Of a stretch of DNA of 64,000 bases, positions 48,515 through 64,000 are shown in pieces. How positions within the stretch are numbered: the stretch's first letter is position 1; the number at the start of each line of letters is the position of its first letter. This stretch comes from Streptomyces sp. NBC_01803 (GTDB lineage Bacteria; Actinomycetota; Actinomycetes; Streptomycetales; Streptomycetaceae): positions 5,760,001 through 5,824,000 of the forward strand of contig NZ_CP109073.1 in NCBI RefSeq assembly GCF_035917415.1. The letters are read 5' to 3'. The notes beneath the pieces were generated by a model. It was not told the origin of the DNA, ran no database searches, and saw only the letters and a program-made list of their open reading frames with translations. Position numbers and translations under genes: made by a program.

Positions 48515-49886
48515 TCAACCTTTCAGCTGTTGTAGGGCGATAAGGGTCTTCTCGCGGCGGACGGTTTTGCCCACGTCGTAGCGGGGTGCTCGGCGTCTGT
48601 TTCTGGTGCCGGGTGGTCGTCCTGGGCCTGGCCGGTGGGGTTTCGGTGCTCTGGTGGGGCAGGGCATGTGCTGGCGGAGGTTCTGGAACGTCCGGCGGAC
48701 CCGGGCGGGTGTGAGTCGGCCTGGTGCGGCCGGCTTCTCCCACGGGTGCCGCAGGTCCCGGGCCAGGGGGCGGGCGAGCCGGAGCTGGGTGGAGGCGGCG
48801 ATGATCAGCCACGTCCACCGGTCGGGGGCCGTTCCGGGCTCCCGCAGGCGGGGCTTCGTCCAGCCCAGCGTCTGCTTGAACAGCCGGAAGGTGTGTTCCG
48901 GGTCGAACCTTCGCAGGAACGCCTGCCAGGCGCGGTCAACGTCCGTGTCGGTGGCGCCGGTCTTGGAGGACCACAACCACACCGCCGGCGCCTCCCGGTC
49001 CTTCGACAGGTGCTCGGCCTCCAGCCGGATCAGCGTGCCCTCGATCAGCGGGAATTCGCCTTCATGGTCGAGCCGGGCGGCCCGGTGAGTGAGCCGCGGG
49101 TGGACCCGGTCCCACACCTGCGTGACGGCCTTGCCGTAGTTCGCGGTGGCGGTGCGGGTGGTGACCGCGGGCTCGGGCCAGGTCTCCGGCCTGGCGAAGC
49201 GGAACTCCGGCCGGTGCTCGGGCGGGCCGACCGTTCGTCCCCGGAAGCCGCGGCGGCTTCGGTAACCGCATCACGCGGTCACCGCGGATGCGCCCGACCA
49301 GCTCGACCGGGAGGTCCCGCAGGACCCAGGCCAGGCGGGTGACGTCATAGCCGGCGTCGGTCACGATCAGGATGTCCGGCTCGCCGGGCTGCCACTGGCC
49401 CGCGGTGATGAGCCGGTCGACGACGTCGCGGAGCTGGGCGGCAGGGACCGCGGTGGCGTCGTCGGCCGGGCCGAGCCGGACGGCGTCCAGGATCTGCGTC
49501 CAGGACGTGGCGCCCATCTCCAGCACCGCTACCAACGAGTACGGCCAGCCCGGGATGAACTGCGAGGCCGTCTTCGCCCGGCCGTAGACGTGGCAGAACA
49601 GCCGCTCCGGCGAACACGGCGCGTCCGACCGGAGCCACGGCGGGACATCGACCGCCAGCACCAGCCGCCCGTCGGGGAACCGCGGCAGAGTCAGGCCGGC
49701 CAGCACCTGCCGCAGTCCGGCGGCGTCGATCCGGCCCTGGTGGAGGCCGTCGTACATCGCTCCGTGCCCACGCCGGTGCTCGGGCAGCAGCGTCAGCCGC
49801 ACCGCCGAGTGCACCGCACCCGGCGCACACAGCACCGCGTCCGCTAGCTCGAACAGCTCATCGCCCCGCACGGTCAGACGGCTCAC
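48515..49886 (-). pseudogene. Transposase of the NF041680-type, frameshifted and 5'-truncated
   Basis: The frame from 49886 reads RGDELFELADAVLCAPGAVH, VDVPPWLRSDAPCSPERLFC and ILIVTDAGYDVTRLAWVLRD. Near 49222 one base is out of register and the rest continues in another frame: FRFARPETWPEPAVTTRTAT, FDPEHTFRLFKQTLGWTKPR and RAPRYDVGKTVRREKTLIAL. About 15 N-terminal residues of the family are missing. The first GTG overlaps the stop codon of the flavin monooxygenase gene, so the insertion lies exactly at that gene end. Confidence 0.82.
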
Positions 49887-51058
49887 ACCAGCGGGGTGAT
49901 CCGCTCCTCGACGCCGAGCAGCGCCTTCCCGTAGACCTCGATGCCGACCATCGGCGCGGCGACCGCGTGCCGGGCGGCGGTGTTGGCGTCGCGCCAGATC
50001 CGCTGGAGCGGGTTGACCTCGGCGAACGTGCCCGCGCCGTGGACATCGACCAGGCTCTGGATGGCCTCGATGGTGTTGCGGATCGCGTGGCCGGTGTCGG
50101 CCCGCACGCGGGCGCGGGTGAGGAAGTCGGGATACTCGCCGCGCCGGGCCGCCGCGTCGATGTCGTCGGCGGCGCGGTGGGCGTGCAGCAAGGCGGTGTC
50201 CACGCGCATCGCGGCCTCCGCGATCCGGATCTGCACGGCCACCGACTCGGCCTGCGTCTCGTAGAAGGTGTACGAGATCGGTTTCGTGGCGGCCTTCGCG
50301 GTGACGTACTTCAGCGCGGCGCGGCCCAGCCCGAGCTGCGGCCCGGCCAGGACCAGCGCGAGGACCGGCACGAAGGCGGAGCGGGGGAACACCTCGTCCT
50401 TCCGCTCCGTCGGGTAGTCGCCCTCGATCGCGGCCGGCACCGACAGCACGCGGTACCCGGGGACGAACACGTCCCGCGCGACGAGGCAGTTGCTGCCCGT
50501 GCCGCGCATCCCGGCCACGAACCAGGTCTCCTCCAGCTCCAGGTCCTCCCGGGGCACCAGCGCCAGGCCCTGGTCCACGACCTCGCCGGAGTCGTCGGTC
50601 AGCGGCACCCCGAGCACGGCCCAGTGCGCGTGCCAGGAGCCGGAGGTGTAGTACCAGCGGCCGGTGACGCGCCAGCCGCCCGCCACCCGCCGGGTGGTGG
50701 AGGTGGGGCTGAGCACCCCGGCGACCCGGGCGCCGGGCCGGTCGCCGAACACATCGTCCTGGGCCCGCGCGGGGAAGAGGCTGGTCAGCCAGTTGCACAC
50801 GTTGATGAGGGTGACCACCCAGGAGGTGGAGCCGTCCCCCTCGGCGAGCGCCGCCGACACGTTCAGCACGGTCCGCATGTCGCTCTGGTGGCCGCCGTAC
50901 CGCCGGGGGGTCGCGAGCTGGAACAGCCCCGCCTCGCTCAGCGCGTCGATCACCTCGCCGGGGACGCGCCGGTCGGTCTCGGTCCGCGCCGCGTGCTCGC
51001 GCAGCAGCGGCTGGAGCGCCACGGCCCCGGCGACGAGGTCGTCGTTGGTCGTCGTCAT
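49883..51058 (-). CDS. Flavin-dependent monooxygenase, acyl-CoA-dehydrogenase fold (HsaA/HpaB-like)
   Basis: 391 aa. The acyl-CoA dehydrogenase fold is clear (TPRRYGGHQSDMRTVLNVSA, GDGSTSWVVTLINVCNWLTS, YYTSGSWHAHWAVLGVPL, and a C-terminal helical bundle with VDVHGAGTFAEVNPLQRIWR). These features and the adjacent flavin reductase point to a two-component oxygenase that hydroxylates an aromatic ring with reduced FMN/FAD, not to fatty-acid oxidation. The ATG at 51058 has GAGGGAG upstream. The last codons (RITPLV) abut a transposase remnant; family members often end within a few residues of this point, so little if anything is lost. Confidence 0.85.
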   Translation of the reverse strand: MTTTNDDLVAGAVALQPLLREHAARTETDRRVPGEVIDALSEAGLFQLATPRRYGGHQSDMRTVLNVSAALAEGDGSTSWVVTLINVCNWLTSLFPARAQDDVFGDRPGARVAGVLSPTSTTRRVAGGWRVTGRWYYTSGSWHAHWAVLGVPLTDDSGEVVDQGLALVPREDLELEETWFVAGMRGTGSNCLVARDVFVPGYRVLSVPAAIEGDYPTERKDEVFPRSAFVPVLALVLAGPQLGLGRAALKYVTAKAATKPISYTFYETQAESVAVQIRIAEAAMRVDTALLHAHRAADDIDAAARRGEYPDFLTRARVRADTGHAIRNTIEAIQSLVDVHGAGTFAEVNPLQRIWRDANTAARHAVAAPMVGIEVYGKALLGVEERITPLV

Positions 51059-51105
51059 GGTCTCCCTCTTCCGTTTCTCCGCGGGGCCCCGGGCCGGGGC
51101 CCCGG

Positions 51106-51633
51106 TCACCGGGCGCACGCCCGGACGTGGTCGGCGATGCTGTGGCGCGGGTGGCGGGCGAGGGCCGAGTGGGTGCCGAACGTGCGGTGGGCGTAGACCA
51201 GCGGCGCCGCCGTGCCGGTCCCGGCGTGGATCACCGTCCCGAGCAGCAGCAGGTGGTCGCCGCCCTCGACCGCCCGGGCCACCTCGCAGACCAGCCAGCC
51301 CGGCGACCGCGCCAGGCGCGGCAGCCCGTGGTCGTAATCCCAGTCGGCGCCCGCGAAACGGTCCGCGCCCCGCCGGGCGAACGCCGTCGCCACCCCGGCC
51401 TGGGCGTGGCCCAGCACGTTCACCCCGAACCGGCCGGTGGCCACGATCCGGGTGAGCAGGGACGATCTCGCGTCGAGCGCCACCATGACCATCGGCGGGC
51501 GCAGCGAGAGCGCGGCGAAAGCGCTGACGGTCGCCCCGTACGGCACACCGTCCAGGGCCCCGGTCACGACGGTGACCGGGGCGCAGACACCGGCCATGAG
51601 GTCGCGGAACTCCTGCTCACCGATCACGCGCAC
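51106..51633 (-). CDS. Flavin reductase (HpaC-like) partner of the monooxygenase
   Basis: 175 aa of the flavin reductase-like FMN-binding family: CAPVTVVTGALDGVPYGATV, SAFAALSLRPPMVMVALDAR, RFGVNVLGHAQ and GDHLLLLGTVIHAG. It should use NAD(P)H to supply reduced flavin to the oxygenase gene 47 bases downstream. GTG at 51633 is used; GTG at 51627 is also possible. The gene pair is transcribed away from a GntR gene. Confidence 0.88.
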   Translation of the reverse strand: MRVIGEQEFRDLMAGVCAPVTVVTGALDGVPYGATVSAFAALSLRPPMVMVALDARSSLLTRIVATGRFGVNVLGHAQAGVATAFARRGADRFAGADWDYDHGLPRLARSPGWLVCEVARAVEGGDHLLLLGTVIHAGTGTAAPLVYAHRTFGTHSALARHPRHSIADHVRACAR

Positions 51634-51654
51634 CTGCCACGGCGGCCTCCAGGC

Positions 51655-51745
51655 AGCTATTCACCATGATGATTACGGTGAGATTGCCCCCCGTTTACGC
51701 GAGTCGTCAAGGGGTGCGAAGCTATTCGTCATTATCAATTCCGGT
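51655..51745. promoter_or_regulatory. Two direct repeats between the reductase and GntR genes
   Basis: AGCTATTC is repeated at 51655 and 51720, each followed by CAT-N-AT-N-A-rich sequence (AGCTATTCACCATGATGATT and AGCTATTCGTCATTATCAAT). The first copy also contains TCACC/GGTGA inverted arms. They lie in the divergent promoter region and are AT-richer than the surroundings, so they are candidate GntR sites. Confidence 0.55.
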
Positions 51746-51782
51746 CACTTCCGGGACCGGTCCGGAACGGCGAGGGAGACGC

Positions 51783-52553
51783 GTGGCGGCAGGGGAGCGG
51801 AACGCGGCGGGGCGCGCGGCGGACACGTCCGCCGAACGGGCGGCGGGGGCGCAGCCGGCGCTGCGGCGCGGCGACTGGGACCGCGCGGCCGGCTCCCGCG
51901 CCGGGATGGCCGCCGAGCGGATCGCCGCGCTGGTGGCCGGCACCGCGCCGGGCGCCAGGCTCGGCACCAAGGAGGAGCTGCGCCGGCGGTGCGGCGTCTC
52001 GGTCGGCACGTTCAACGAAGCCCTGCGGCTGCTCCAGGCCCGCGGCCTGGTCACGGTCCGGCCGGGGCCCGGCGGCGGGCTGTTCGCCGCCGAGCAGTCG
52101 CCGATGGTCCGCCTGGGGAACTCGGTGCTGGCCCTGGACGCCGCCGCGGCCGATGTCTCCGACGCGATGCGCGTCCGCGACGCCCTCGACCCGCTGCTGG
52201 TGGAGGACGCGCTGTGGCACGCGTCCCCGGCGGACATCGCGGACCTGCGGCGGCACCTCGGCGAGATGGAGGCGGCGGTCGTGGCCGGGGACCCGGACGC
52301 GTTCGTGCGGGCGAACTGGCGGCTGCACGCCCGGATAGCCGCGGTCAGCCCGAACACGTTGCTGCGTTCGCTCTACACCAGCCTGCTCGACCTGATCCAG
52401 GAACACACCCTGGCCGTCCACCCGGGCGGTGAGCGCCCGCTGACGGCCCACATCCGGGAGCGGCACCGCCTGCACGCCGACCTGGTCGACGCCCTCGACC
52501 GGCGCGACCGCGACGAGGCCCTCCGCCTGATCCACCGGCACGGCGGCGGCTGA
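51783..52553 (+). CDS. GntR-family (FCD/FadR subfamily) regulator
   Basis: 256 aa. The winged helix-turn-helix is LGTKEELRRRCGVSVGTFNE, ALRLLQARGLVTVRPGPGGG. The C-terminal all-helical FCD ligand domain has metal-ligand-like residues in RVRDALDPLLVEDAL and LHADLVDALDRRDRDEALRL. The GTG at 51783 follows GAGGGAG at seven bases. It is divergent from the oxygenase/reductase pair and 34 bases before the IclR gene. Confidence 0.88.
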   Translation: MAAGERNAAGRAADTSAERAAGAQPALRRGDWDRAAGSRAGMAAERIAALVAGTAPGARLGTKEELRRRCGVSVGTFNEALRLLQARGLVTVRPGPGGGLFAAEQSPMVRLGNSVLALDAAAADVSDAMRVRDALDPLLVEDALWHASPADIADLRRHLGEMEAAVVAGDPDAFVRANWRLHARIAAVSPNTLLRSLYTSLLDLIQEHTLAVHPGGERPLTAHIRERHRLHADLVDALDRRDRDEALRLIHRHGGG

Positions 52554-52587
52554 CCCGGGCGTTCCCACGGCCTGTTAGATTTCCTCC

Positions 52588-53403
52588 ATGCCCGGTACCG
52601 AGCCGCGAGAGATAGCGCCCTCCTCGGGCTACCGTGGACGCAACTCCACGGCGGACCGAGCGCTGGACATCCTGCTGCTGTTCTCCGACGAGCGGCTGGT
52701 CCTCTCCGCCGCCGAAGTGGCCACCCACCTGGGCGTGGCCCGCTCCACCGCCTACCGCTACCTCCAGAGCCTGACCGCCAACGGCTTCCTGGAGGAGAAC
52801 GACGGCGGCTCCGGGTTCCGCATCGGCCCGCGCGTCCTGGACCTGGCCCGGCTCGCCCGCAAGGGTGTCGGTCTGTCCGACGTCGCCCGCCCGGTGATGC
52901 GGGAGCTGGTCGCCCGGATCAGGCAGCCCCTGCTGCTCACCCGCCGCACGGGCGCGTCCGTCGTCTGCCTGGAGCGCGTCGAGGCGGGCCAGTCGCTGCG
53001 GCTGTCCTACGAACGCGGCCAGGTGCTGCCGGTCAACGCGGGCGCCGCCGCCCTCTCGCTCCTGGCGTGGGCGCCGGACGAGGAGCTGGACCGCATCCTC
53101 GGCCGGCCCCTGGAGCGTTTCACCGAGTCCACCATCACCGACCCGGCGGAGCTGCGGAAGCGGCTGGCGGTGATCCGGGAGCAGGGCTACGCGCTGACCC
53201 GTGGCGAGATCGACCCCGACGTGCTGGGCATCGCCGCGCCCGTGCGCGCGTCCGGCGGTGCCGTGGTCGCCGCGCTGAGCGTCGCCGCGCTCGCCCACCG
53301 GGTGCCGGACGAGGAGGTCCCCGGGGTCACGGCCGCGATCCGCGAGGCCGCCGACGAGGTCTCCCGCCGACTGGCCCAGCTCGACCTCGACATCGCCACC
53401 TGA
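52588..53403 (+). CDS. IclR-family regulator
   Basis: 271 aa. Helix-turn-helix region STADRALDILLLFSDERLVL, SAAEVATHLGVARSTAYRYL; C-terminal ligand domain with ALTRGEIDPDVLGIAAPVRA. IclR proteins control aromatic-acid catabolism in many actinomycetes and bind about 15-bp palindromes; two matching 18-bp sites in this window, before genes at 53710 and 61277, are strong candidates for its operators. ATG at 52588. Confidence 0.92.
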   Translation: MPGTEPREIAPSSGYRGRNSTADRALDILLLFSDERLVLSAAEVATHLGVARSTAYRYLQSLTANGFLEENDGGSGFRIGPRVLDLARLARKGVGLSDVARPVMRELVARIRQPLLLTRRTGASVVCLERVEAGQSLRLSYERGQVLPVNAGAAALSLLAWAPDEELDRILGRPLERFTESTITDPAELRKRLAVIREQGYALTRGEIDPDVLGIAAPVRASGGAVVAALSVAALAHRVPDEEVPGVTAAIREAADEVSRRLAQLDLDIAT

Positions 53404-53607
53404 CACCGGCCCGCCCCGCCCGCCCGTTCCGCCGCCTCTGTTCCGCCGCCTCCGTTGCGCCGCCGCCTCCGCGCGGCCGCAGTTCCGCTGCCGCGCCGCA
53501 GGTGAACGCCCCGCATGGACCGTCCGGCGGTGGCCGCACCGCGTCTTCACATCGTGTCCGCAGGTGTATTGACCGCGCCCCCCGCCTGTGGCAGGGTCCC
53601 GCCTAGA

Positions 53608-53634
53608 AGGACAGTGATCCTAAATAGCAGGACA
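53608..53634. promoter_or_regulatory. IclR-type operator 1, upstream of the first bicupin gene
   Basis: ATCCTAAATAGCAGGACA (53617-53634) has TCCT/AGGA arms and agrees at 14 of 18 positions with operator 2 at 61244-61261. An overlapping inverted repeat AGGA-CAGTGA-TCCT begins at 53608. The site is about 75 bases before the gene, at promoter distance. Confidence 0.7.
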
Positions 53635-53709
53635 AGCCGCCGGAGGGTCGAGGCCGTCGACACCGGCCGCCACACCTGACGCAGCCGGCGCCGATCAAGG
53701 AGGATCGAC

Positions 53710-54693
53710 ATGGGCCTCGTGCACGAGACCATCGACGCGTTCCCGTTCGACAAGCGGTCCATCCGCCTGGCGCGCGAGGAGGAGTTGCTGCTCGCCGAAC
53801 CGCTGCCGGGCCGCAAGCAGCTCCGGGGCCAACCGCCCGTCGAAGCGGTGCACTTCACGCCCGAGTACGTGCCCATGGAGTTCGGGCACCCCCGTGGCGT
53901 GTACGAGAGCGACCACATGCGCGTCGAGTGGCAGACGATGAACAACCGCCAGCCCTTCTACCATCGCAACTGTGACGTGGACGAGATGTCCTACCAGGTG
54001 TGGGGCGAGCGGACGCTGATGACGGAGCTGGGCACGGTCGAGCTCACGCGCGGCGACTTCTCGCGCATTCCCGTCGCCGTCGCCCACGACAACTTCGGGC
54101 GGGAGGACATCCACCTGCTCTTCTACATCCCGGCCCCGGTCGAGGAGGCGCAGCCCGCCGCCCGCACCGCCGAGGCGCTGGACGTGCCGTTCCCCGGCTG
54201 GGAGCCGGTCACCGTCAACGAGCTGATCACCGAGTGCCTCGGCGGCCCCGGGCACGACATCGCGATGTACCCGACCGACGAACGGCTGCTGCTCGGCCAC
54301 GCCCGGACGGTGCGGGAGCGCATCCGCGTCCAGCGCCCGGACGAGCACGCGCCCGGCGCCACCTGGCTCTACCGCTCCGCCGACGTCCACATCGGCCGCG
54401 TGGTGACGCCCGCCTCCGACGGCCGCGAGTACGTCCGGCACCGCAACGCCACCGAGATCCAGTACCAGATCAGCGGCCGGCGGACCCTGGTGACCCAGCG
54501 CGGCGCCCTCGACCTCGAACCGGGCGACTTCGTCCGCCTCCCGGTCGGTGTCGCGTTCACCAGCGTCCACCACGGCCCGAGCGCCCACATCGCGCTCCTC
54601 TCGGCCCGCGACGTGCCACAGGTCGCCGACGGCAGCAAGAAGAGCGAGCCGATCACGGCGGCAGGTGTCGAGCGCCTCCGGGCGGCGTCATGA
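53710..54693 (+). CDS. Bicupin protein, homogentisate-dioxygenase-like
   Basis: 327 aa, two cupin domains. In the first, YHRNCDVDEMSYQVWGERTL and the strand IPVAVAHDN give His85, Glu92 and His126 as likely metal ligands; in the second, VRHRNATEIQYQISGRRTLV repeats the pattern. This HRN-x3-E arrangement matches the homogentisate 1,2-dioxygenase fold, so ring cleavage of a dihydroxy-aromatic is possible; an isomerase or sugar-type cupin role is not excluded. A paralogue begins at 63774. Stop overlaps the next start by four bases. Confidence 0.8.
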   Translation: MGLVHETIDAFPFDKRSIRLAREEELLLAEPLPGRKQLRGQPPVEAVHFTPEYVPMEFGHPRGVYESDHMRVEWQTMNNRQPFYHRNCDVDEMSYQVWGERTLMTELGTVELTRGDFSRIPVAVAHDNFGREDIHLLFYIPAPVEEAQPAARTAEALDVPFPGWEPVTVNELITECLGGPGHDIAMYPTDERLLLGHARTVRERIRVQRPDEHAPGATWLYRSADVHIGRVVTPASDGREYVRHRNATEIQYQISGRRTLVTQRGALDLEPGDFVRLPVGVAFTSVHHGPSAHIALLSARDVPQVADGSKKSEPITAAGVERLRAAS

Positions 54694-55790
54694 CCCTCAT
54701 GACTGCGGTCCGCGCCCACCGGGGCGAGGAGAAGCTGCGGCTGGAGCAGATCCCGGTCCCCGAGCCGGGACCGGGGGACGTGCTCGTCAAGGTCGCCGCC
54801 GCCGGGCTCGCGCCCAGCATGATGAAGCTGCTGGCCCGCGGCGCGTTCACGCACCTGCCCACCACGCCCGGCCACGAGATCGCGGGCACCGTCGTGGCGG
54901 TGGGCTCGGCGGACGACGCGTCGCTGACCGGCCGCCGGGTCCGGGTCCACCCGATGCTGTCGTGCCGCTCCTGCGTGTACTGCCGCACCGACCGCGAGCA
55001 GATGTGCGCGGAGACCGCGATGATCGGCCACGCCGCCTTCGGGACCGGGCCGCTGCGGCTGTACGCCGAGTACCACGACGGCGGGCTCGCCGACTATGTG
55101 CGGGTGCCGCGGTGGCTGGTCGATCCGCTGCCCGACACCGTGAGCTTCGAGGTCGGCGCCAAGGTGCACGACCTGGCCAACGCGGTCCGCGCCCTGAAGT
55201 GCGCCGCGCTCCCGCTCGGCGGCACCCTGGTCGTCACCGCCGCCACCGGCACCATGGGCGTGTCCACCGTCAAGCTGGCCCGGTTCTTCGGCGCCGCGCG
55301 GCTGGTGCTGGTCGGCCGCTCGGCCGACCGGCTGGCCGACGTGCGGGCGCTGGCCGGCTCGCTGCCCGCCGACACGGTCGCGCTGAGCGAACTGGGCGAG
55401 GACTGGGAGACCACCGGCGCGCTGACCCGGCGCCTGCACGAGCTGGTGCCGCGCGGCGCCGACGCGGCCGTCGACTTCCTGCCCGGCGGCGCGGGCACCG
55501 GGCAGACCGCCGCCGCGCTGGCGACCGGCGGGACGCTGGTGCACATGGGCGGCAACCACGCGCCGTTCCCCTTCCCGATGCGGGAGGTCATGCACGCCTG
55601 CTGGCGCTTCATTGGCACCCGCGCCTGCACCCGGGTCGACACCGCCGCCGTGCTCGACCTCCTCGGCTCCGGCGCCCTGCGCGCCGACGATCTGATCACC
55701 CACCGCTTCCCGCTCACCCAGGTGAACGAGGCCGTCACCCTCATGCTCAGCCGCGACGAGCCCATGTGGATGGGCGTCGTCACCCCCTGA
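54690..55790 (+). CDS. Zinc-type alcohol dehydrogenase-like (MDR) protein
   Basis: 366 aa. The structural zinc cluster is present (SCRSCVYCRTDREQMCAE) and the cofactor fold is VVTAATGTMGVSTVKLARFF. The catalytic zinc site is odd: the GHE motif is present (TTPGHEIAGTV) but the usual Cys at the first ligand position is replaced by APSMMK. It may use another ligand or work without catalytic zinc, for example as a reductase. The ATG overlaps the bicupin stop by four bases, so both should act on the same pathway. Confidence 0.85.
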   Translation: MTLMTAVRAHRGEEKLRLEQIPVPEPGPGDVLVKVAAAGLAPSMMKLLARGAFTHLPTTPGHEIAGTVVAVGSADDASLTGRRVRVHPMLSCRSCVYCRTDREQMCAETAMIGHAAFGTGPLRLYAEYHDGGLADYVRVPRWLVDPLPDTVSFEVGAKVHDLANAVRALKCAALPLGGTLVVTAATGTMGVSTVKLARFFGAARLVLVGRSADRLADVRALAGSLPADTVALSELGEDWETTGALTRRLHELVPRGADAAVDFLPGGAGTGQTAAALATGGTLVHMGGNHAPFPFPMREVMHACWRFIGTRACTRVDTAAVLDLLGSGALRADDLITHRFPLTQVNEAVTLMLSRDEPMWMGVVTP

Positions 55791-55928
55791 CCCACCCCAC
55801 CCGGCCGCCACCCGGGCCCTCCCCACCTCCTCAATCGAACGCCAATTCGAATGAAGTGCCGATAAGTCGTCTGTTTCGCGACGCTCATGAGCCGTGAAAG
55901 AGCCGCGAGAGAAAGAAAAGAGATTCCC

Positions 55929-57074
55929 GTGAGACGCCGTTCGCATCACCACTGGAGATACGCCACCGCCGCGACCGCCGCCACCGTGGCGATCGCCCTG
56001 ACCGCCGGCTGCGGCTCCGACTCCGACTCCGGCAACTCCTCCGGCGGCGACGACGGGCCCTCGGCCGCCGACGCCGCGCAGCAGCGGCTCGCGGACAACC
56101 CCGCGCTGGCCGACCTCGTCGCCGCGGCCGAGGAGGAGGGCGCCCTCAGCCTCAACTGGGGCCTGCACGGGCAGGGCGGCCTCGACTCCCTGGTCGACGC
56201 CTTCCAGGAGGCATACGGCCTCGACCTGGACGTCACCCTCACCCCCGACCAGAACATGCCGGGCAACACCGCCAAGCTCATCCAGGAGCACAACGCCGGC
56301 TCCCCGTCGTCCACCGACGCCCTGCTCGGCAACCCCGAGCTGATCCGCAACGCCGCCCAGGCCGGCGCCCTCGCCGAGACCGACTGGGCGGCCGTCGCGC
56401 CGTGGACCGAGGGCCTGGCCAGCGGCGACAACATGGCGCTCAGCCTGCTCGACCAGATCCCCGGCTTCACCTACAACACCACCCTCATCAGCGAGGACGA
56501 GGTGCCGCGGACCGCCGCCGACGTCCTGGAGATGGACCAGGCGATCGCCAGCACCCCGTACGCCGCGCAGTTCAACGTGCTCGGCGCCGACGAGGCGATG
56601 GGCGTCGACGGCGTGCGCGACTACCTCCGCGCGTTCGAGCCCGAGGGCTACTTCGGCTGCGGCGAGCTGAACCGCGTGGCGTCCGGCGAGTTCGCCGCGC
56701 TGTGGATCTCCTGCGGCAAGAACCTCGCCGACGTCGTCGCCGAGGAGGGCGCCCCGCTGGAGACGGCCGTCCTGGCGGACGCGGCCAGCGTGTCGAGCTG
56801 GTACATGGGCATCCCCGAGAACGCCCAGCACCCGGCCGCCGCCACGCTGTTCGCGACCTGGCTGGTCACCCCGGAGGCGCAGGAGCTGCTCTACGAGCAG
56901 GAGTTCGCCGACAACCGCCTGGTCGAGGGCAGCCGGACCGCCCAGGAGATCGCCGAGTACGAGGCGGACGGCGTGAACTTCACCGAGGTCGACTACCAGT
57001 TCACCGCCGACCACCCCGAGCTCTACAACACCGAGTTCAAGGACGAGCTGATCGGGCTGCTGACGACCAAATGA
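55929..57074 (+). CDS. ABC transporter substrate-binding lipoprotein (Fe3+/polyamine type)
   Basis: 381 aa. Signal peptide with lipobox ALTAGC, then a class II binding protein: EEEGALSLNWGLHGQGGLDS, FQEAYGLDLDVTLTPDQNMP, AGVS-like AASVSSWYMGIPENAQHPAA. This class binds iron(III), polyamines, phosphonates or small carboxylates. The GTG at 55929 is used; an in-frame ATG at 55887 would extend the N-terminus. It overlaps the permease start by four bases. Confidence 0.88.
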   Translation: MRRRSHHHWRYATAATAATVAIALTAGCGSDSDSGNSSGGDDGPSAADAAQQRLADNPALADLVAAAEEEGALSLNWGLHGQGGLDSLVDAFQEAYGLDLDVTLTPDQNMPGNTAKLIQEHNAGSPSSTDALLGNPELIRNAAQAGALAETDWAAVAPWTEGLASGDNMALSLLDQIPGFTYNTTLISEDEVPRTAADVLEMDQAIASTPYAAQFNVLGADEAMGVDGVRDYLRAFEPEGYFGCGELNRVASGEFAALWISCGKNLADVVAEEGAPLETAVLADAASVSSWYMGIPENAQHPAAATLFATWLVTPEAQELLYEQEFADNRLVEGSRTAQEIAEYEADGVNFTEVDYQFTADHPELYNTEFKDELIGLLTTK

Positions 57075-58933
57075 CCAACACCCAGGCAATCCAGGAAAAC
57101 CAGGACACCCGGACCGGCACGGGGGCGACGCCGCCCCCGGCTGGCCAGGCCCCGCCCGCGCCCGGCCGCCGCCGGCGCCGCCGCCGGCCCACCGCCACCG
57201 GCGTCCTCGCGGCCCTCATCGCCGTCCCGGCCCTGTGCGTCGTCGCCCTGCTGATCCTCGTGACCTACCTGGGCTTCCGCGAGAACGGATCACCCGACGG
57301 CGCCCTCACGTTCGACAACTACACCTCGCTCTTCGGCGACTCCCAGGTCTGGGAGGTCGTCCTCAACACCCTGATCTACGTCGCCGTCACCCAGGTCGTC
57401 GCGCTCCTCCTCGGCACCGCCCTCGCGCTGCTGGTGGAGCGGACCGACTTCGGCTGGGAGCGCACCATCAACACCGCGATGGTGCTGCGCATCCTCATCC
57501 CCGGCTTCTTCACCGCCATGGGCTGGATCTTCCTGTTCCACCCGCGCGTCGGCGCCGTCAACCAGTGGCTGATGGAGTGGTTCGGCCTGTCCGAGGGGCC
57601 GGTCAACATCACGTCGCTGATCGGCATGGGCTTCGTCGAGGGCCTGGGCCTGTCCGCCCTCGTCTTCGTCATGGTCTCCAGCAGCCTCCGCTCCGTGGAC
57701 GGCTCGCTGGAGGAGGCCGCCCGCGCCTCCGGCGCCGGTCCCTGGCGGGTGCTGCGCCGCGTGACGCTGCCGCTGATCTACCCCAGCATGCTCGGCGCGG
57801 GCATCTTCACCGCCACCATCGCCATCTCCTCCCTGGACATCCCGCTGATCATGGGCCTGTCCAACGGCATCCACGTCTTCAGCAGCTACCTGTACGTGGC
57901 GACCAACCCCTCGGTCGGCGTCACCGAGTACGGTGTCCCGGCGGCGTTCAGCGGTGTGATGATCCTGCTCGCGATCGGCTTCAGCCTCTGGTACCTGCGC
58001 ACGCTGAAGTCGGCCCGCAAGTACCAGGTCGTCACCGGCAAGGGGTACCGGCCGGCGCGCGTCCCGCTGGGCCGCTGGCGCTGGGCCGCCTGGCTGTTCG
58101 TCGGCGGGTACTTCCTGTGGTCGGCCGTGCTGCCGTTCCTCATGGTCGTGTGGACCTCGCTGCTGCCCTACGTGCAGAAGCCGTCGGCCGAGGCCCTGGA
58201 GCACGTGTCGTTCGACAACTACCGGGACCTGGACTGGGACTACGTCCTGCGGGGCCTGGAGACCACGGTCAAGCTGATGGTGCTGGCACCCACCCTCGCG
58301 GTGCTGCTGAGCCTGGCGTTCTCCTACGTCGTGGTCCGCTCCCGGCTGCGTTTCCGCTACCTGTACGACTTCACGGCGTTCCTGCCGCAGGCCGTGCCGA
58401 GCACCATCTTCGCCTTCAGCGCCATGATCGCCGCCCTGTACTGGACCGACGGCTGGTACAGCCTCTACGGCACGCTGGCGATCCTCGTCGTGGTCATGGC
58501 CCTGATCCAGGTCGCGTTCGGCACCCGCATGTTCAACGCCGGGCTGGTGCAGATCCACACCGAGCTGGAGGAGGCGGCGGCCATGTCGGGCGCCTCCACC
58601 TGGGCGACCGTCCGCCGCGTCACCCTGCCGCTGCTGCGGCCCGTGGCCACGTACACCTGGCTGTGGCTGGCGCTGCTGACCCTGCGCGACCTGACCGTGC
58701 CGACGCTGCTCGGCTCGCAGGACACGCTCACCCTCTCCGTGGCCTCCTGGATGCTCTACAACACCGGCCAGGTCGGCGCCTCCTCGGCGGTCACGCTGCT
58801 GATGATCCTGTTCATGACCCCGGTCGTCGTGCTGTTCCTCGTCTTCACACGCGGCCGGTCGGGCGCGGGCCCCGGAGCCGGTGCCAGGGCCGGGGGCCCG
58901 GCCGGCGGAGCGGCGGGGGGAACGGGCCTGTGA
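57071..58933 (+). CDS. ABC transporter permease, two fused membrane domains
   Basis: 620 aa with about twelve membrane helices. Two BPD_transp_1 domains are fused, each with an EAA loop: LEEAARASGAGPWRVLRRVT in the first half and LEEAAAMSGASTWATVRRVT in the second. Such fused permeases are typical of FbpB/iron-type importers and of some carboxylate or phosphonate importers. The ATG overlaps the binding-protein stop. The Pro/Arg-rich N-terminal 35 residues are cytoplasmic. Confidence 0.92.
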   Translation: MTNTQAIQENQDTRTGTGATPPPAGQAPPAPGRRRRRRRPTATGVLAALIAVPALCVVALLILVTYLGFRENGSPDGALTFDNYTSLFGDSQVWEVVLNTLIYVAVTQVVALLLGTALALLVERTDFGWERTINTAMVLRILIPGFFTAMGWIFLFHPRVGAVNQWLMEWFGLSEGPVNITSLIGMGFVEGLGLSALVFVMVSSSLRSVDGSLEEAARASGAGPWRVLRRVTLPLIYPSMLGAGIFTATIAISSLDIPLIMGLSNGIHVFSSYLYVATNPSVGVTEYGVPAAFSGVMILLAIGFSLWYLRTLKSARKYQVVTGKGYRPARVPLGRWRWAAWLFVGGYFLWSAVLPFLMVVWTSLLPYVQKPSAEALEHVSFDNYRDLDWDYVLRGLETTVKLMVLAPTLAVLLSLAFSYVVVRSRLRFRYLYDFTAFLPQAVPSTIFAFSAMIAALYWTDGWYSLYGTLAILVVVMALIQVAFGTRMFNAGLVQIHTELEEAAAMSGASTWATVRRVTLPLLRPVATYTWLWLALLTLRDLTVPTLLGSQDTLTLSVASWMLYNTGQVGASSAVTLLMILFMTPVVVLFLVFTRGRSGAGPGAGARAGGPAGGAAGGTGL

Positions 58934-58954
58934 CGCCGCGCCACCCGGCGACGA

Positions 58955-59026
58955 CCGGGACACCGCGGCCGGCCGGGACACCGCGGCCGGCCGGGACACC
59001 GCGGCCGACGGAGACACCGCTGACAA
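58955..59026. repeat. 18-bp tandem repeat between permease and ATPase genes
   Basis: CCGGGACACCGCGGCCGG occurs as two perfect units plus a nearly perfect third and a degenerate fourth. It separates the permease stop from the ATPase start by 112 bases, unlike the 4-base overlaps elsewhere in this operon. It may form RNA structure or be a simple slippage product. Confidence 0.8.
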
Positions 59027-59045
59027 CGGAGAAGGAGGACCACTC

Positions 59046-60164
59046 ATGACCGGCACCGGCAACCGCCCACTCGCCGTGGAGGGCCTGCGCAAGGGCTTCG
59101 CGGACCGCGACACCACGGTCAGGGCCGTGGACGACGTGAGCTTCGAGCTGAAGGAGGGCGAGCTGTACACCCTGCTCGGCCCCTCGGGCTGCGGCAAGAC
59201 GTCGACGCTGCGCTCGGTCGCGGGCCTGGAACGCCCGGACGGCGGGCGCGTCGTCATCGACGGCACCGTGGTCGCCGACCCCGCCGCGGGCCACTTCGTC
59301 CCGGCCAACAAGCGCGACATCGGCATGGTGTTCCAGAGCTACGGCATCTGGCCGCACATGACGGTCTTCGACAACGCCGCGTTCCCGCTCCAGGTGGCCA
59401 GGACCAGGACGCCGAAGGCGGAGATAGCCGAACGGGTGGGCGGTGCCCTGGCCGCCGTGCAGCTCGACGCGTACGCCGGGCGCATGGCCACCCAGTTGTC
59501 CGGCGGCCAGCAGCAGCGCCTCGCGCTGGCCCGCGCCCTGGTCCGGCGCCCCAAGCTGCTGCTGCTGGACGAGCCGCTGTCCAACCTGGACGCCAAGCTC
59601 CGGCAGGCGATGCGCGCGGAGCTGTCCGCGCTCCAGAAGCAGCTCGGCATCACCACCCTCTATGTGACCCACGACCAGGACGAGGCGCTGAGCATGTCCA
59701 GCCGCATCGCCGTGATGTCGGCGGGGCGCATCGTCCAGGAGGGCAGCCCGCGCGACATCTACCAGCGTCCCGCGACCCGGTTCGTGGCCGACTTCGTCGG
59801 TACGACCAACTTCCTGCCCGGCACGGTCGCCGGCACCGGCGGTGACGGCACCCGCATCGGGACGGCCGTCGGCGAGCTGGTCGGCACCGGCGGGCACGGC
59901 GCGAGCGCCGGGGAGGCGGTGCTGCTGGCCGTGCGGCCCGAGTCCGTCCGGCTGCACCTGACCGAGCCGGGCCCGGCGGCCAACGTCATCACCGGCGAGG
60001 TCGAGCAGGTGATGTTCGTCGGCGAGCGCGTCGACTGTCACGTCCGCGTCGGCGACGACGTGTGGGTCACCCGGCAGGAGCCCTACCTGGCCGCCGTCTC
60101 CGGCGACAAGGCGTGGCTGGAGCTGCCCGCCGAGTCCCTGTCCGTCATCCCCACCCGGGACTGA
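59046..60164 (+). CDS. ABC transporter ATPase (PotA/FbpC type)
   Basis: 372 aa. Walker A GPSGCGKT (45-52), Q-loop VFQSYGIWPHMTVFDNAAF, signature LSGGQQQRLALARALV, Walker B LLLLDEPLSNLDAKLR and switch His in VTHDQDEALSMSSRI, then a C-terminal OB-fold (TOBE) domain of about 120 residues. It powers the importer formed with the preceding binding protein and permease. The ATG at 59046 follows GAAGGAGG. Confidence 0.95.
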   Translation: MTGTGNRPLAVEGLRKGFADRDTTVRAVDDVSFELKEGELYTLLGPSGCGKTSTLRSVAGLERPDGGRVVIDGTVVADPAAGHFVPANKRDIGMVFQSYGIWPHMTVFDNAAFPLQVARTRTPKAEIAERVGGALAAVQLDAYAGRMATQLSGGQQQRLALARALVRRPKLLLLDEPLSNLDAKLRQAMRAELSALQKQLGITTLYVTHDQDEALSMSSRIAVMSAGRIVQEGSPRDIYQRPATRFVADFVGTTNFLPGTVAGTGGDGTRIGTAVGELVGTGGHGASAGEAVLLAVRPESVRLHLTEPGPAANVITGEVEQVMFVGERVDCHVRVGDDVWVTRQEPYLAAVSGDKAWLELPAESLSVIPTRD

Positions 60165-60214
60165 CCGCGCGCGCCCGCCCGCGGGCGCAGATCTTCCAAG
60201 GAGAACCAGACCGC

Positions 60215-61177
60215 ATGCTCACCGACCCGATCGATGTGCGGATCCTCTGTCCGGGCCAGAACTGGATGGCGATCGGCAGCCTGATCGCCAACGGCCTCAA
60301 CGGCTACTACAGCCGCCTGCCGGACGGCTCGACGGTCGCGGCCGTCACCGGCTGCCCGCCGGCCGCCCTCGGGATGGACGGGCCCCGCCTGGTCGCCGAG
60401 GGGACGTACACGATGGCGATCACCACCCCGGCCTGGAACCTGACGATGGCCCGGGAGGGGAAGGGCCCCTACGCCGAGCCGCTGCCGCTGCGGGCGCTGG
60501 CCGTGTTCCCCCACGACGACCGGCTGGCGTTCGCCGTGCGCCGGGAGACGGGCATCGGGAGCCTGCGCGACATCGCGGAGCGGAAGCCGCCGCTGCGGCT
60601 GTCCGTGCCGCCGCGCGAGCAGGGCCATCCCGTGACCTGGGTGCTGGACGAGATCCTCGCCCGGTACGGCTTCACGCCCGAGGACGTCGAGGGCTGGGGC
60701 GGCGAGGTGCTCAGGGACCGGCCCCGCAACCAGAACGCGCCTGGCTCCGTGCCGGTCGATCCGTCGTTCGACGCGGTGTTCGACGAAGCGGTCATGACGA
60801 TGCGCTGGCGGCGCATCACCTCCGAGTACGCCATCCGGTTTCTGCCGCTGGACCCGGAGGTGCTCGCGCACTGCGCCGCCCTGGGCATGCCGCCGGGCGT
60901 CCTGGAGCGGGGGCGGCTGCGCGGTGTCGACGCGGACGTGCCGACGATCGACTTCTCCGGATGGGTGCTCTACTGCGCCGAGTCGATGCCCGACGAGCTG
61001 GCGTATCTCACCGTGCGCGCCATCGAGGAGCAGCGGGAGAACATCTCCGCCCGCTTCACCGGACCCACCCCGGCGATGACCAGCCCGCTGGACATGCGCC
61101 GCGCGGCGTGCGACGTGCCCGTGCCGCTGCATCCGGGGGCCGAGGAGTACTACCGCGAGGCGGGCCACCTGGCATAA
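60215..61177 (+). CDS. TAXI/PBP-fold protein without signal peptide (1)
   Basis: 320 aa. Matches the TAXI-like substrate-binding fold: RILCPGQNWMAIGSLIANGL, YTMAITTPAWNLTM, LRALAVFPHDDRLAFAVRRE and VEGWGGEVLRDRP. The N-terminus is polar and has no signal peptide or lipobox, so it should stay in the cytoplasm. Some cytoplasmic relatives of this fold are decarboxylases, such as 4,5-dihydroxyphthalate decarboxylase. AAGGAGA precedes the ATG. It follows a complete ABC importer that already has its own binding protein. Confidence 0.78.
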   Translation: MLTDPIDVRILCPGQNWMAIGSLIANGLNGYYSRLPDGSTVAAVTGCPPAALGMDGPRLVAEGTYTMAITTPAWNLTMAREGKGPYAEPLPLRALAVFPHDDRLAFAVRRETGIGSLRDIAERKPPLRLSVPPREQGHPVTWVLDEILARYGFTPEDVEGWGGEVLRDRPRNQNAPGSVPVDPSFDAVFDEAVMTMRWRRITSEYAIRFLPLDPEVLAHCAALGMPPGVLERGRLRGVDADVPTIDFSGWVLYCAESMPDELAYLTVRAIEEQRENISARFTGPTPAMTSPLDMRRAACDVPVPLHPGAEEYYREAGHLA

Positions 61178-61243
61178 GGGGCCGGGCCGGCCTTGCGTGA
61201 TGGCCACCCGACCCTCTACCGTGTTTCATATAACAAGACATTC

Positions 61244-61261
61244 ATCCTGCAAAACAGGACA
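61244..61261. promoter_or_regulatory. IclR-type operator 2, upstream of the second TAXI-like gene
   Basis: ATCCTGCAAAACAGGACA contains perfect TCCTG/CAGGA arms. It agrees at 14 of 18 positions with operator 1 (53617-53634) and lies 15 bases before the start of the next gene, so a repressor here would block transcription or initiation. Confidence 0.72.
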
Positions 61262-61276
61262 TCATCAGGAGGCGTG

Positions 61277-62236
61277 ATGACGCACCGTCCGCCGGAGCCG
61301 ACGATCGACCGGTCGATCACCCTGCACCTGCGGGGCGACTGGGGCACGGCCAACCTCCACCGCGTCTGCGGCTGGATCTCGCAGGAGCTGACCGACCGCA
61401 GCGGCCCGCACACCAGGGTCGCCGTCTGGAACAGCCGGGGCTTCTCCGACGCGGTGCGCGCGGTGGGCCGGGGCGAGGTCCAGGTCGCCATGACCACCCC
61501 CGTCGCGTTCACCACCGCGGCACTCGACGGACGCGGCGTCTTCGCGGACGAGAGCTTCCCCGACCTGCGGGCCCTCGGTGTCGTGCCGCAGCGCGACCGC
61601 CTGGTGATGGGCGTGCGCCGGTCCCTGGGCATCACGTCGTTCGCCCAGCTCCGGGAGGCCAAGCCCGCCCTGCGGCTGGCCACCTCCGTCCACGACGGGG
61701 TGAACTACGTCGGCCTGGCCGCGCACGAGCTGCTCACCCGCTCCGGGATCGACGTCACCGGCTGGGGCGGCGAGCTGCTGACGGACGAGCGGCCGTTCGA
61801 GACGTTCGGGCACGTCCTGGCCGGCCGGGCGGACGCCGTGGTCCACGAGGCGTACATGCTGCCCCACTGGCAGGAGTTCGGCGCCGATTTCCACTTCCTC
61901 GAAGTGGAGCAGGCCGTCCTGGACAGCCTGTGGCGGGACTACTCGTGGCCGTCCGCCGAGGTGGACGAGGGACACTTCCCCGGCGCCCCCGCGTTCCGCA
62001 CCCTGGACTTCTCCGACTTCCTGGTCCTCACCCGCGCCGACCTCGCCGACGACGTGGCCTACGCCATCGCGTGGGTGCTGGGCGAGACGCGGGACGTCCT
62101 GGAGCGCCAGTACCGGCACATCCCGCCCGAGCGGAGCCCGGTGACGTACCCGCTGGACCCGGTGACGATGGGCAGGACCCCGGTTCCGCTGCACCCCGGC
62201 GCCGCCCGCTACTACGACGCCCTGCCGCGGCCGTGA
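61277..62236 (+). CDS. TAXI/PBP-fold protein without signal peptide (2)
   Basis: 319 aa, paralogue of the protein encoded at 60215-61177. Shared blocks include VAMTTPVAFTTAAL, LRALGVVPQRDRLVMGVRRS, VTGWGGELLTDERPF and the end VPLHPGAARYYD. Again there is no export signal. A strong AGGAGG ribosome-binding site precedes the ATG. The stop overlaps the aldolase start by four bases (GTGA), which ties it to catabolism more than to transport. Confidence 0.78.
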   Translation: MTHRPPEPTIDRSITLHLRGDWGTANLHRVCGWISQELTDRSGPHTRVAVWNSRGFSDAVRAVGRGEVQVAMTTPVAFTTAALDGRGVFADESFPDLRALGVVPQRDRLVMGVRRSLGITSFAQLREAKPALRLATSVHDGVNYVGLAAHELLTRSGIDVTGWGGELLTDERPFETFGHVLAGRADAVVHEAYMLPHWQEFGADFHFLEVEQAVLDSLWRDYSWPSAEVDEGHFPGAPAFRTLDFSDFLVLTRADLADDVAYAIAWVLGETRDVLERQYRHIPPERSPVTYPLDPVTMGRTPVPLHPGAARYYDALPRP

Positions 62237-62937
62237 ACGCGGCGGAGGCCAGGACCCTGGCCGTCGAGGCGTCCCGCGCGCTGGCCGCCGCGGGCCAGGG
62301 GGACATGGTGTGGGGGCACGTCGCGGTGCGCGACCCCGAAGGGCGCGGCATCTGGATCAAGGCGCCCGGCTGGGGTCTTGAGGAGGTCACCGGGGACCGG
62401 CTCCAGCTCGTGTCGTTCGACGCCGAGGTCCTGGTGGGGGAGGGCACCGCGCACAAGGAGTGCCCGATCCACCTGGAGATCCTGCGGGCCCGGCCCGACC
62501 TGGTGTGCACCGTCCACACCCACGCCGCGTCCGCCGTGGCGTTCGCCGCTCTGGACACCGTCCTGCTGCCGCTCTCCCACGAGGGCGCGCTGTTCGGCGG
62601 CCAGGACGTGCCGCGCTTCGCGGAGACGGGCGGCCTGGTCAGCACCCCGGAGCTGGGCGGGGCGCTGGCCGCCGCGCTGGGCGACGCGCCCGCCGCGCTG
62701 ATGCCCAAGCACGGGCTGGTCGCCGCCGGGGCGAGCGTCCCCGCCGCCGTCATGCACGCCGTGCTGCTGGACCGCGCCTGCCGCACCCAGCTCACCGCGC
62801 TGGCCGCCGGGCCGGTGCGGGTGTGGTCCGACGCCGCCGAGGCACACGCCAAGCGCGCCGAGTGCTGGCCCGCCGGCCAACTGGAGGCCGGCTGGCGCTA
62901 TCTGGTGCGGCGCGCCGCCGCCCGGGACCGGACCTGA
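62233..62937 (+). CDS. Class II aldolase / decarboxylase family protein
   Basis: 234 aa of the aldolase II/adducin family. The zinc site is complete: CTVHTHAASAV with His95 and His97, His160 in MPKHGLV, and the catalytic Glu76 in AHKECPIHLEIL. Members include fuculose-phosphate aldolase and aromatic decarboxylases such as PhtC (3,4-dihydroxyphthalate). The context favours an aromatic decarboxylase or aldolase late in a catabolic path. GTG start coupled to the preceding gene. Confidence 0.87.
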   Translation: MNAAEARTLAVEASRALAAAGQGDMVWGHVAVRDPEGRGIWIKAPGWGLEEVTGDRLQLVSFDAEVLVGEGTAHKECPIHLEILRARPDLVCTVHTHAASAVAFAALDTVLLPLSHEGALFGGQDVPRFAETGGLVSTPELGGALAAALGDAPAALMPKHGLVAAGASVPAAVMHAVLLDRACRTQLTALAAGPVRVWSDAAEAHAKRAECWPAGQLEAGWRYLVRRAAARDRT

Positions 62938-62989
62938 CCCCGGGACCGACACCGAGAACAGCCCTACCGTGACGAAGGAAGACACGCAG

Positions 62990-63733
62990 ATGAACGACCC
63001 CCACGCCCCCGCCCTCTCGGCCGACTGGGTGACCGTCCCCACCGGCGACGGCCCGATGCGGGTGTACGCCGCCCGGCCCGCCGCCGCCGCCGACCGGGCC
63101 GTGGTCGTGCTCCAGGAGGCGTTCGGCGTCAACGACCACATCCAGGACATCGCCCGCCACTTCGCCGCCCGCGGCTTTCTCGCGCTGGCGCCCGACCTGT
63201 TCCACCGCAACGGCGTGGGAACCCTCGGGTACGAGCAGCACGCCGAGGCGATGCCGCTGATCGGCGCGATCGGGCCCGACGCGATCATCACCGACGTCCG
63301 CGCCGTGCTGGACCACCTCGCCGCCGCCGAGGGCATCGACACGGGCCGGACCGCGATCACCGGGTTCTGCTTCGGCGGCCGAGCCGCGTTCACCGCCGCC
63401 ACGGCGATCCCGGGGCTGGCCGCGACCGTCGTGTTCTACGGCCCCGGCATCGCGGCGGGCCCGCACGCCGTGCTGGACCGCGCCACGGCCCTCGACGCGC
63501 CGCTGCTGCTGCACGTCGGCGCCGAGGACCCGACCATCCCCGCCGAGCAGGTGCGGGCCATCGACACCGCGCTGACCGGCGCGGGCGTCGAGTTCGAGCA
63601 GCACGTGTACGCCGGCGCCGGGCACGCGTTCGCCTGCGACGCCCGCCCGCACATGTACCGCGACGAGCAGGCCGGGACCGCGTGGCACCGCACCTGGGCG
63701 TTCCTCGACCACCACCTGCCCCCGGCCGTCTGA
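62990..63733 (+). CDS. Dienelactone hydrolase family protein
   Basis: 247 aa alpha/beta hydrolase. Catalytic Cys127 in GFCFGGR, Asp180 in GAEDPTIP, His212 in GAGHAFAC and the companion Glu43 in QEAFG match carboxymethylenebutenolidase, which opens dienelactones formed after ortho ring cleavage. The ATG at 62990 has AAGGAAG upstream; a GTG at 62969 would add seven residues. It supports an aromatic-catabolic reading of the cluster. Confidence 0.9.
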   Translation: MNDPHAPALSADWVTVPTGDGPMRVYAARPAAAADRAVVVLQEAFGVNDHIQDIARHFAARGFLALAPDLFHRNGVGTLGYEQHAEAMPLIGAIGPDAIITDVRAVLDHLAAAEGIDTGRTAITGFCFGGRAAFTAATAIPGLAATVVFYGPGIAAGPHAVLDRATALDAPLLLHVGAEDPTIPAEQVRAIDTALTGAGVEFEQHVYAGAGHAFACDARPHMYRDEQAGTAWHRTWAFLDHHLPPAV

Positions 63734-63773
63734 GTCCGTATCCGCAAGTCACTCAAGGAACAAGGGAGTTCCC

Positions 63774-64000
63774 ATGGGAACCGTCTCCGAGATCATCGCG
63801 GTGATGGGCTCCGACGAGCCGCTGCGCACCGTCGAGCGGGACGAGGACGCGCTGCTGGGTCCGCCGCACCCCAGCCCGTTCCCCGTCAAACTCTGGCGCG
63901 ACCACGAGCCGTTGACCGTCGTGCACTTCCCCCAGCGGTTCACGGCCCGGCCGTTCGCGCCGCCGCGCGGCGTCTACGAGAACGACCGGATCCGCGTGGA
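63774..64000 (+). CDS. Second bicupin protein, 3' end outside window
   Basis: 75 codons visible. The segment LTVVHFPQRFTARPF, then PPRGVYENDRIRV parallels VEAVHFTPEYVPMEF, then HPRGVYESDHMRV of the first bicupin (53710-54693), so it is a paralogue. AAGGGAG precedes the ATG. The metal-binding part lies beyond the window. Confidence 0.8.
   Translation, partial: MGTVSEIIAVMGSDEPLRTVERDEDALLGPPHPSPFPVKLWRDHEPLTVVHFPQRFTARPFAPPRGVYENDRIRV

Follow-up and report, generated by a model that had tools for sequence, protein, structure and literature searches.

Near the end of the chromosome of Streptomyces sp. NBC_01803, about 17–37 kb from the end of the single 5,847,022-base contig (NZ_CP109073.1), we find a set of catabolic-type genes that is kept together across genera and phyla. 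The stretch analysed here, referred to as the window, comprises 64,000 nucleotides (contig positions 5,760,001–5,824,000), and the gene set extends 5.9 kb beyond its right edge. We read it as a conserved island for the catabolism of a single phenolic compound, absent from the papers searched, and put the probability of this reading at roughly 0.6. The location is a Streptomyces-like chromosome end region, and the gene set found there is real and widely shared. While aromatic meta-cleavage islands are a known kind, what is new in this one is the combination of a bicupin with TAXI-fold proteins that carry no signal peptide.

From these genes we infer a pathway, including the order of its reactions, its substrate and the role of the TAXI proteins, in which an ABC system with a lipoprotein would import the phenolic compound, an MhpA-like FAD hydroxylase would add a hydroxyl group to yield a catechol or hydroxyquinol, and a one-domain VOC protein would open the ring by extradiol cleavage. 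The product of ring cleavage would then be hydrolysed by an FAH-family enzyme; members of this family hydrolyse C–C bonds or isomerise ring-fission products. Bicupin, dienelactone hydrolase-family enzyme (DLH), MDR reductase and class II aldolase would turn what is left, an oxygenated or lactone-like piece, into central metabolites. The IclR proteins probably regulate the system, and the TAXI proteins would remain in the cytoplasm, where they could bind or act on an intermediate. As a lead, the substrate may be a flavonoid- or stilbene-like phenol. If the proposal is correct, the island represents a defined, testable gene set with which soil actinomycetes would degrade a phenolic compound.

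The gene set is not a product of chance. Streptomyces specialis has an identical gene set in identical order, with tblastn identities of 91–98% for the proteins of the left locus (71% for the flavin reductase) and 95–99% for those of the right locus. When one genome was scanned for each species, the bicupin turned up at 63 distinct loci, 60 of them in records that are actinomycete by title (Actinomadura, Streptomyces, Nocardia, Amycolatopsis and others) and the remainder in Ramlibacter, Sphingomonas and one Chloroflexota metagenome-assembled genome. Two further loci on plasmids, from Phaeobacter and a Streptomyces, bring the total to 65; the nearly identical S. specialis is counted in this number, and Actinomadura rayongensis, A. 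atramentaria, Nocardia tenerifensis and Streptomyces canus contribute two loci each. Within 9 kb of the bicupin, and using per-family identity floors that we set ourselves, we counted MDR genes at 59 loci, FAH at 48, the FAD hydroxylase at 37, aldolase and IclR at 35 each, TAXI2 at 34, DLH at 24, VOC at 21, TAXI1 at 11 and each ABC importer gene at 9. These counts are lower bounds because several loci stop at contig edges, and gene calls at the other loci were uncurated, greedy picks of open reading frames by codon-position G+C. At 57 of the 65 loci, the MDR gene lies directly downstream of the bicupin on the same strand. The bicupin itself is uncommon. In its own order it was found in 7 of 293 genomes, ours counted, and at high score it occurs in one of 399 genomes each of Ramlibacter's family and order, in both cases the Ramlibacter genome itself. 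Nine further genomes in the family scan gave bicupin matches with E values of 8.9e-7 or weaker.

A compact relative of the island resides on plasmid pGal_C110 of Phaeobacter gallaeciensis (locus L005, 16420–28263), where DLH, aldolase, bicupin, MDR, two signal-less TAXI proteins, FAD hydroxylase, FAH, a two-domain VOC protein and IclR are assembled. The same plasmid also bears a true TAXI–TRAP pair and a 3-hydroxybenzoate/gentisate-type gene set.

The original prediction, made from the sequence of the window, had described one catabolic set of unusual composition. Every family it named was recovered by profile matches to the window proteins, and the syntenic copies and rightward extension that it advised looking for are there, as the S. 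specialis island and the additional 5.9 kb of genes. Its statement that no known pathway combines all these families agrees with our search of open-licence PubMed Central (PMC) papers, in which we found no characterised pathway with this gene combination. Nor did synteny with a characterised pathway emerge from anything that could be tested; the ifc pathway (PMC11069340) was compared by parts list.

Several of the enzymes have retained their key residues. The structural-zinc cysteines of the MDR proteins (Cys92/95/98/106) are present in at least 97% of 67 sequences, as is the triad C134, D187 and H219 in at least 97% of 19 DLH sequences. With its DLH domain and Cys-Asp-His triad, the window protein belongs to the dienelactone hydrolase family, and 19 of 20 DLH sequences have a GFCFGG-type motif. 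In Amycolatopsis, a DLH half 67% identical to the window DLH is fused to a bicupin. By sequence, the FAD hydroxylase appears to belong to the MhpA (PRK06183) group, with 405.3/546 and 345.5/390 bits against the models for a query devoid of its first 45 residues; its Phaeobacter relative reached 395.0/390 bits for PRK06183.1-3 and 541.5/546 for PRK06183.1-5. The one-domain VOC protein resembles parts of extradiol dioxygenases and, more weakly, FosA-type proteins. In other genera a two-domain VOC protein stands beside the hydroxylase, and in two-domain proteins from related loci, which form two sub-groups, the Fe-ligand-type residues H157, H214 and E265 are kept in 7/7. For the class II aldolase the best PDB match is 2z7b, and an HxH motif occurs in 32 of 38 family sequences. 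It shares its superfamily with the decarboxylases PhtC and 2z7b, but at 83.7 bits it misses the cut-off of 200 for the PhtC model NF053537 (3,4-dihydroxyphthalate decarboxylase), and it may catalyse either an aldol cleavage or a decarboxylation.

The bicupin with metal-type residues in its N-terminal barrel and the signal-less TAXI-fold proteins, for which we detected no TRAP permease, are the most unusual parts of the island. Both bicupins are weak Pfam matches, with bicupin 1 (CUP1) below the Cupin_2 cut-off of 27.2 bits. In the AlphaFold model of CUP1 (mean pLDDT 94.4), both barrels align with two-barrel cupins, and the bicupin has the overall fold of homogentisate dioxygenase. In homogentisate 1,2-dioxygenase, the iron ligands, two histidines and one glutamate, are located in the C-terminal barrel. 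In the bicupins, by contrast, metal-type residues are N-terminal: H85, E92 and H126 (CUP1 numbering) are invariant in 38/38 sequences. None of the C-terminal positions checked (284, 288 and 293) is an invariant histidine, the last being histidine in 23 of 38, and the list of invariant residues in the alignment contains no C-terminal histidine. CUP1 gave no match to the homogentisate dioxygenase model TIGR01015 (hmgA; cut-off 510.75 bits) at E values up to 1, and bicupin 2 (CUP2) and the Ramlibacter relative scored 10.7 and 14.6 bits. On account of the missed cut-off and the N-terminal position of the invariant residues, we reject homogentisate dioxygenase as the identity of the bicupins, which corrects the annotation they bear in several database records.

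Bicupins, MDRs, IclRs and TAXI proteins all occur as paralogous pairs in the island, with identities of 55%, 67%, 74% and 35% (over 268 residues), respectively. A tree of 73 bicupins gives the CUP2-type clade of 44 sequences, which excludes CUP1, a support of 0.998 and places CUP1 with sequences from Actinomadura and betaproteobacteria, though at a weak 0.685; given this topology, CUP1 and CUP2 do not look like products of a recent duplication. Locus L013 was kept out of the tree and alignments for a stop codon inside its match range, and the alignments used for structure prediction were made without L004 and L005, or without L005. One database record assigns a bicupin relative 57% identical to CUP1 (P0106) to a fungus, Neophaeococcomyces mojaviensis, reflecting either cross-domain transfer or contamination.

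TAXI1 and TAXI2 have the TAXI fold and an NMT1_3 domain, and thus share fold and Pfam family with the TAXI-family receptors of TRAP transporters. Unlike these, they appear to be devoid of a signal peptide, as the original prediction had noticed, and they score 50.2 and 40.9 bits against the subfamily model TIGR02122, which has a cut-off of 84.35. Hydropathy was gauged simply, as the best mean over 11 residues within the first 45, and by this measure none of 47 sequences has a signal-type N-terminus: values range from 0.15 to 0.95 for 36 TAXI2 and from 0.90 to 1.55 for 11 TAXI1 proteins, compared to 1.99 for the ABC lipoprotein of the operon and 2.32 for one true TAXI receptor. A search of the genome for a TRAP permease yielded no DctM match; the control was positive for 7 of the 14 genomes. 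The signal-less proteins range from actinomycetes to Proteobacteria and the Chloroflexota genome. They prompt one to ask what function a protein with the fold of a transport receptor has in the cell interior. We tentatively suggest a new cytoplasmic class of TAXI-fold proteins, acting as enzymes or as carriers of intermediates, which together with a bicupin with an N-terminal metal site might define an undescribed pathway for ring fragments; we consider this possible rather than probable. Their location would be ordinary if they were secreted by an unrecognised route or served as receptors for the neighbouring ABC importer. We regard this as improbable, given the absence of signal-type N-termini from both groups, a lipoprotein receptor already belonging to the importer, and importer genes near the bicupin at only 9 of 65 loci, compared to 39 of 65 for TAXI proteins.

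Some observations weigh against a single pathway for a phenolic compound as we propose it. Only FAH and MDR accompany the bicupin at 11 of the 65 loci, only MDR at 3 and nothing at 1; in view of such partial sets, the bicupin–MDR pair may be shared by different pathways. The one-domain VOC protein could be a VOC protein other than an oxygenase. IclR1 is encoded on the operon strand, but IclR2 and the VOC protein on the opposite one.

A chance gathering of unrelated genes in a chromosome end with many mobile elements would fit the position close to the contig end and the transposases flanking the island, a broken one of the NF041680 family on the left and one of the IS5 family on the right. It is contradicted for the core by its recurrence in other genera and phyla with key residues and folds intact, and we consider it highly implausible as an account of the island, although it may hold for the part with oxygenase, flavin reductase and GntR regulator. 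The island could alternatively be an actinomycete counterpart of the ifc (isoflavone) or fde (naringenin) pathway, with the FAD hydroxylase as IfcA/FdeE, hydroxylating the A-ring at position 8, the VOC protein as IfcB/FdeC, cleaving that ring, and the two bicupins as IfcD1/IfcD2, acting on the pyranone that remains after A-ring removal. According to the available portions of the report on ifc in Variovorax sp. V35, a single daidzein-induced cluster with regulators and transporters encodes two cupins, paralogous and redundant, along with an FAD monooxygenase and a dioxygenase of the glyoxalase type, and IfcD1/D2 convert 2-hydroxy-5-(4-hydroxyphenyl)-4H-pyran-4-one to C10H10O3 and C10H10O4 products (PMC11069340). 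The island contains the same gene classes, including two paralogous bicupins, but these classes are broad, and the likeness rests on gene descriptions, not on Ifc or Fde protein sequences. Those portions of the ifc report name neither MDR, DLH and class II aldolase nor a signal-less TAXI protein, and they place the pathway in Proteobacteria (PMC11069340). The fde pathway of Herbaspirillum seropedicae, compared by description from parts of two reports, likewise proceeds from an A-ring FAD hydroxylase to ring fission (PMC8552027, PMC11303751), but FdeE is reported to work with a Rieske-type carrier, FdeD (PMC8552027), and we noticed none in the island. Furthermore, among the 399 genomes of Ramlibacter's family only the Ramlibacter genome has a high-score bicupin, though ifc is reported from Variovorax; the sample may lack ifc-bearing genomes. 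Overall, we view a flavonoid pathway as conceivable but rather doubtful. Should the substrate be a flavonoid, oxidative flavonoid pathways would extend from Proteobacteria to Streptomyces, Actinomadura and Nocardia.

Somewhat less probable still, in our estimate, is a single-ring resorcylate or stilbene-derived acid such as 3,5-dihydroxybenzoate, which the FAD hydroxylase would hydroxylate and the VOC protein cleave, with products entering a gallate- or gentisate-type lower pathway. At L123:5699–15335 (genome G246, Ramlibacter family), a related VOC–IclR–FAD hydroxylase–FAH module adjoins an aldehyde dehydrogenase gene and a lignostilbene-dioxygenase-like gene (551.1 bits, below the cut-off of 650), and near the bicupin of Rhodococcus rhodnii lie genes for two enzymes that score above their cut-offs, catechol 2,3-dioxygenase and 4-oxalomesaconate tautomerase. 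Yet the lignostilbene-type gene was found at that one locus, from which the bicupin is absent, and this explanation leaves the second section of bicupin, DLH and MDR unaccounted for. The L123 module may itself be a case of stilbene catabolism. The R. rhodnii set (L056:888–6598), of a gallate or protocatechuate type, further includes a PIG-L-type protein and a weak HIBADH match, and beside it lies a relative (68%) of the HsaA-like oxygenase of the window. Among the Phaeobacter neighbours, a 3-hydroxybenzoate 6-monooxygenase is above its cut-off and a gentisate-dioxygenase-like cupin below; genes clustering with the latter occur at four actinomycete loci, one of them scoring 279.4/442.1 bits. 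As leads, these neighbours indicate phenols entering lower pathways of the gentisate or gallate type rather than any single compound.

Table 1. Genes of the island and its left periphery. Positions refer to the window; beyond its right edge, they were converted from L002 coordinates by adding 62,999.
Feature	Position	Strand	Remarks
HsaA/XiaF-like flavin-dependent oxygenase	49883–51058	-	Acyl-CoA_dh_2; peripheral to the conserved island
Flavin reductase	51106–51633	-	Flavin_Reduct 122.8 bits; peripheral
GntR/FCD regulator	51666–52553	+	FCD 74.1 bits; peripheral
IclR regulator 1 (IclR1)	52588–53403	+	IclR_C 126.2 bits
Bicupin 1 (CUP1)	53710–54693	+	Cupin_2 24.3 bits, below cut-off
MDR reductase/dehydrogenase 1 (MDR1)	54690–55790	+	ADH_N 78.5 bits
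ABC solute-binding lipoprotein	55887–57074	+	SBP_bac_8; lipobox-like LTAGC read in the sequence
ABC permease	57071–58933	+	Single chain with two BPD_transp_1 domains
ABC ATPase	59046–60164	+	With TOBE_2
TAXI1, TAXI-like, without signal peptide	60215–61177	+	NMT1_3 63.2 bits
TAXI2, TAXI-like, without signal peptide	61277–62236	+	TAXI fold and NMT1_3 domain
Class II aldolase/adducin-family enzyme	62233–62937	+	Aldolase_II 127.6 bits
Dienelactone hydrolase-family enzyme (DLH)	62969–63733	+	DLH 172.3 bits
Bicupin 2 (CUP2)	63774–64757	+	Cupin_2 27.3 bits; cut by the window end; stop at L002:1758
MDR2	64801–65901	+	Beyond the window
MhpA-like FAD hydroxylase (FMO)	65898–67505	+	Beyond the window; 4-base overlap with MDR2
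IclR2	67559–68371	-	Beyond the window
VOC protein, one-domain, 164 residues	68410–68904	-	Beyond the window
FAH-family hydrolase	69062–69901	+	Beyond the window

At its left end the island is less coherent than originally proposed. The oxygenase, flavin reductase and GntR genes lie within 9 kb of the bicupin at only 2, 1 and 1 of the 65 loci, S. specialis being among them each time; this part is little conserved and peripheral. Beyond 9 kb, relatives of the oxygenase were found at L029 (76%) and of the GntR regulator at L007 (65%) and L009 (76%). The best PDB matches of the oxygenase are XiaF (2.9e-75) and 3-HSA hydroxylase (6.4e-61), and against the HsaA model NF045629 it scores 282.4 bits, short of the cut-off of 450. 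We reject oxygenase and reductase as the main ring-hydroxylating pair on the basis of their rarity near the bicupin; hydroxylation has its candidate in the FAD hydroxylase, and ring cleavage in the VOC protein, both of which travel with the island and are encoded beyond the window. The decarboxylation step and the carboxylated ring in the same prediction went further than the data, with the aldolase score cited above giving the former no backing. Similarly, its description of the genes as mostly coupled by overlaps was too strong. From bicupin 1 to bicupin 2 all genes are co-directional, with 4-base overlaps at 3 of 9 junctions and gaps of 31–112 bases at the other 6; up to the FAD hydroxylase, the figures are 4 and 7 of 11. 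These counts depend on the chosen starts, and alternative starts upstream would give more overlaps.

Base composition does not set the island apart, as its G+C in 2-kb steps (0.71–0.75) overlaps with that of the 10 kb to its left (0.67–0.72). The NF041680-family transposase on this side (48518–49862, minus strand) is broken in two, with the C-terminal part at 48518–49117 and the N-terminal part at 49062–49862. The IS5-family-like transposase on the right is at L002:9326–10123 on the minus strand, about 72325–73122 in window coordinates, and scores 98.8 bits compared to a cut-off of 140. At 12 bicupin loci (L027, L029, L031, L037, L043–L046, L048, L049, L056 and L062) we also observed a cluster of proteins of about 230 residues, with a metallo-beta-lactamase fold domain in the single member scanned, and at 10 loci a cluster of small proteins, the single scanned member of which has an ABM domain.

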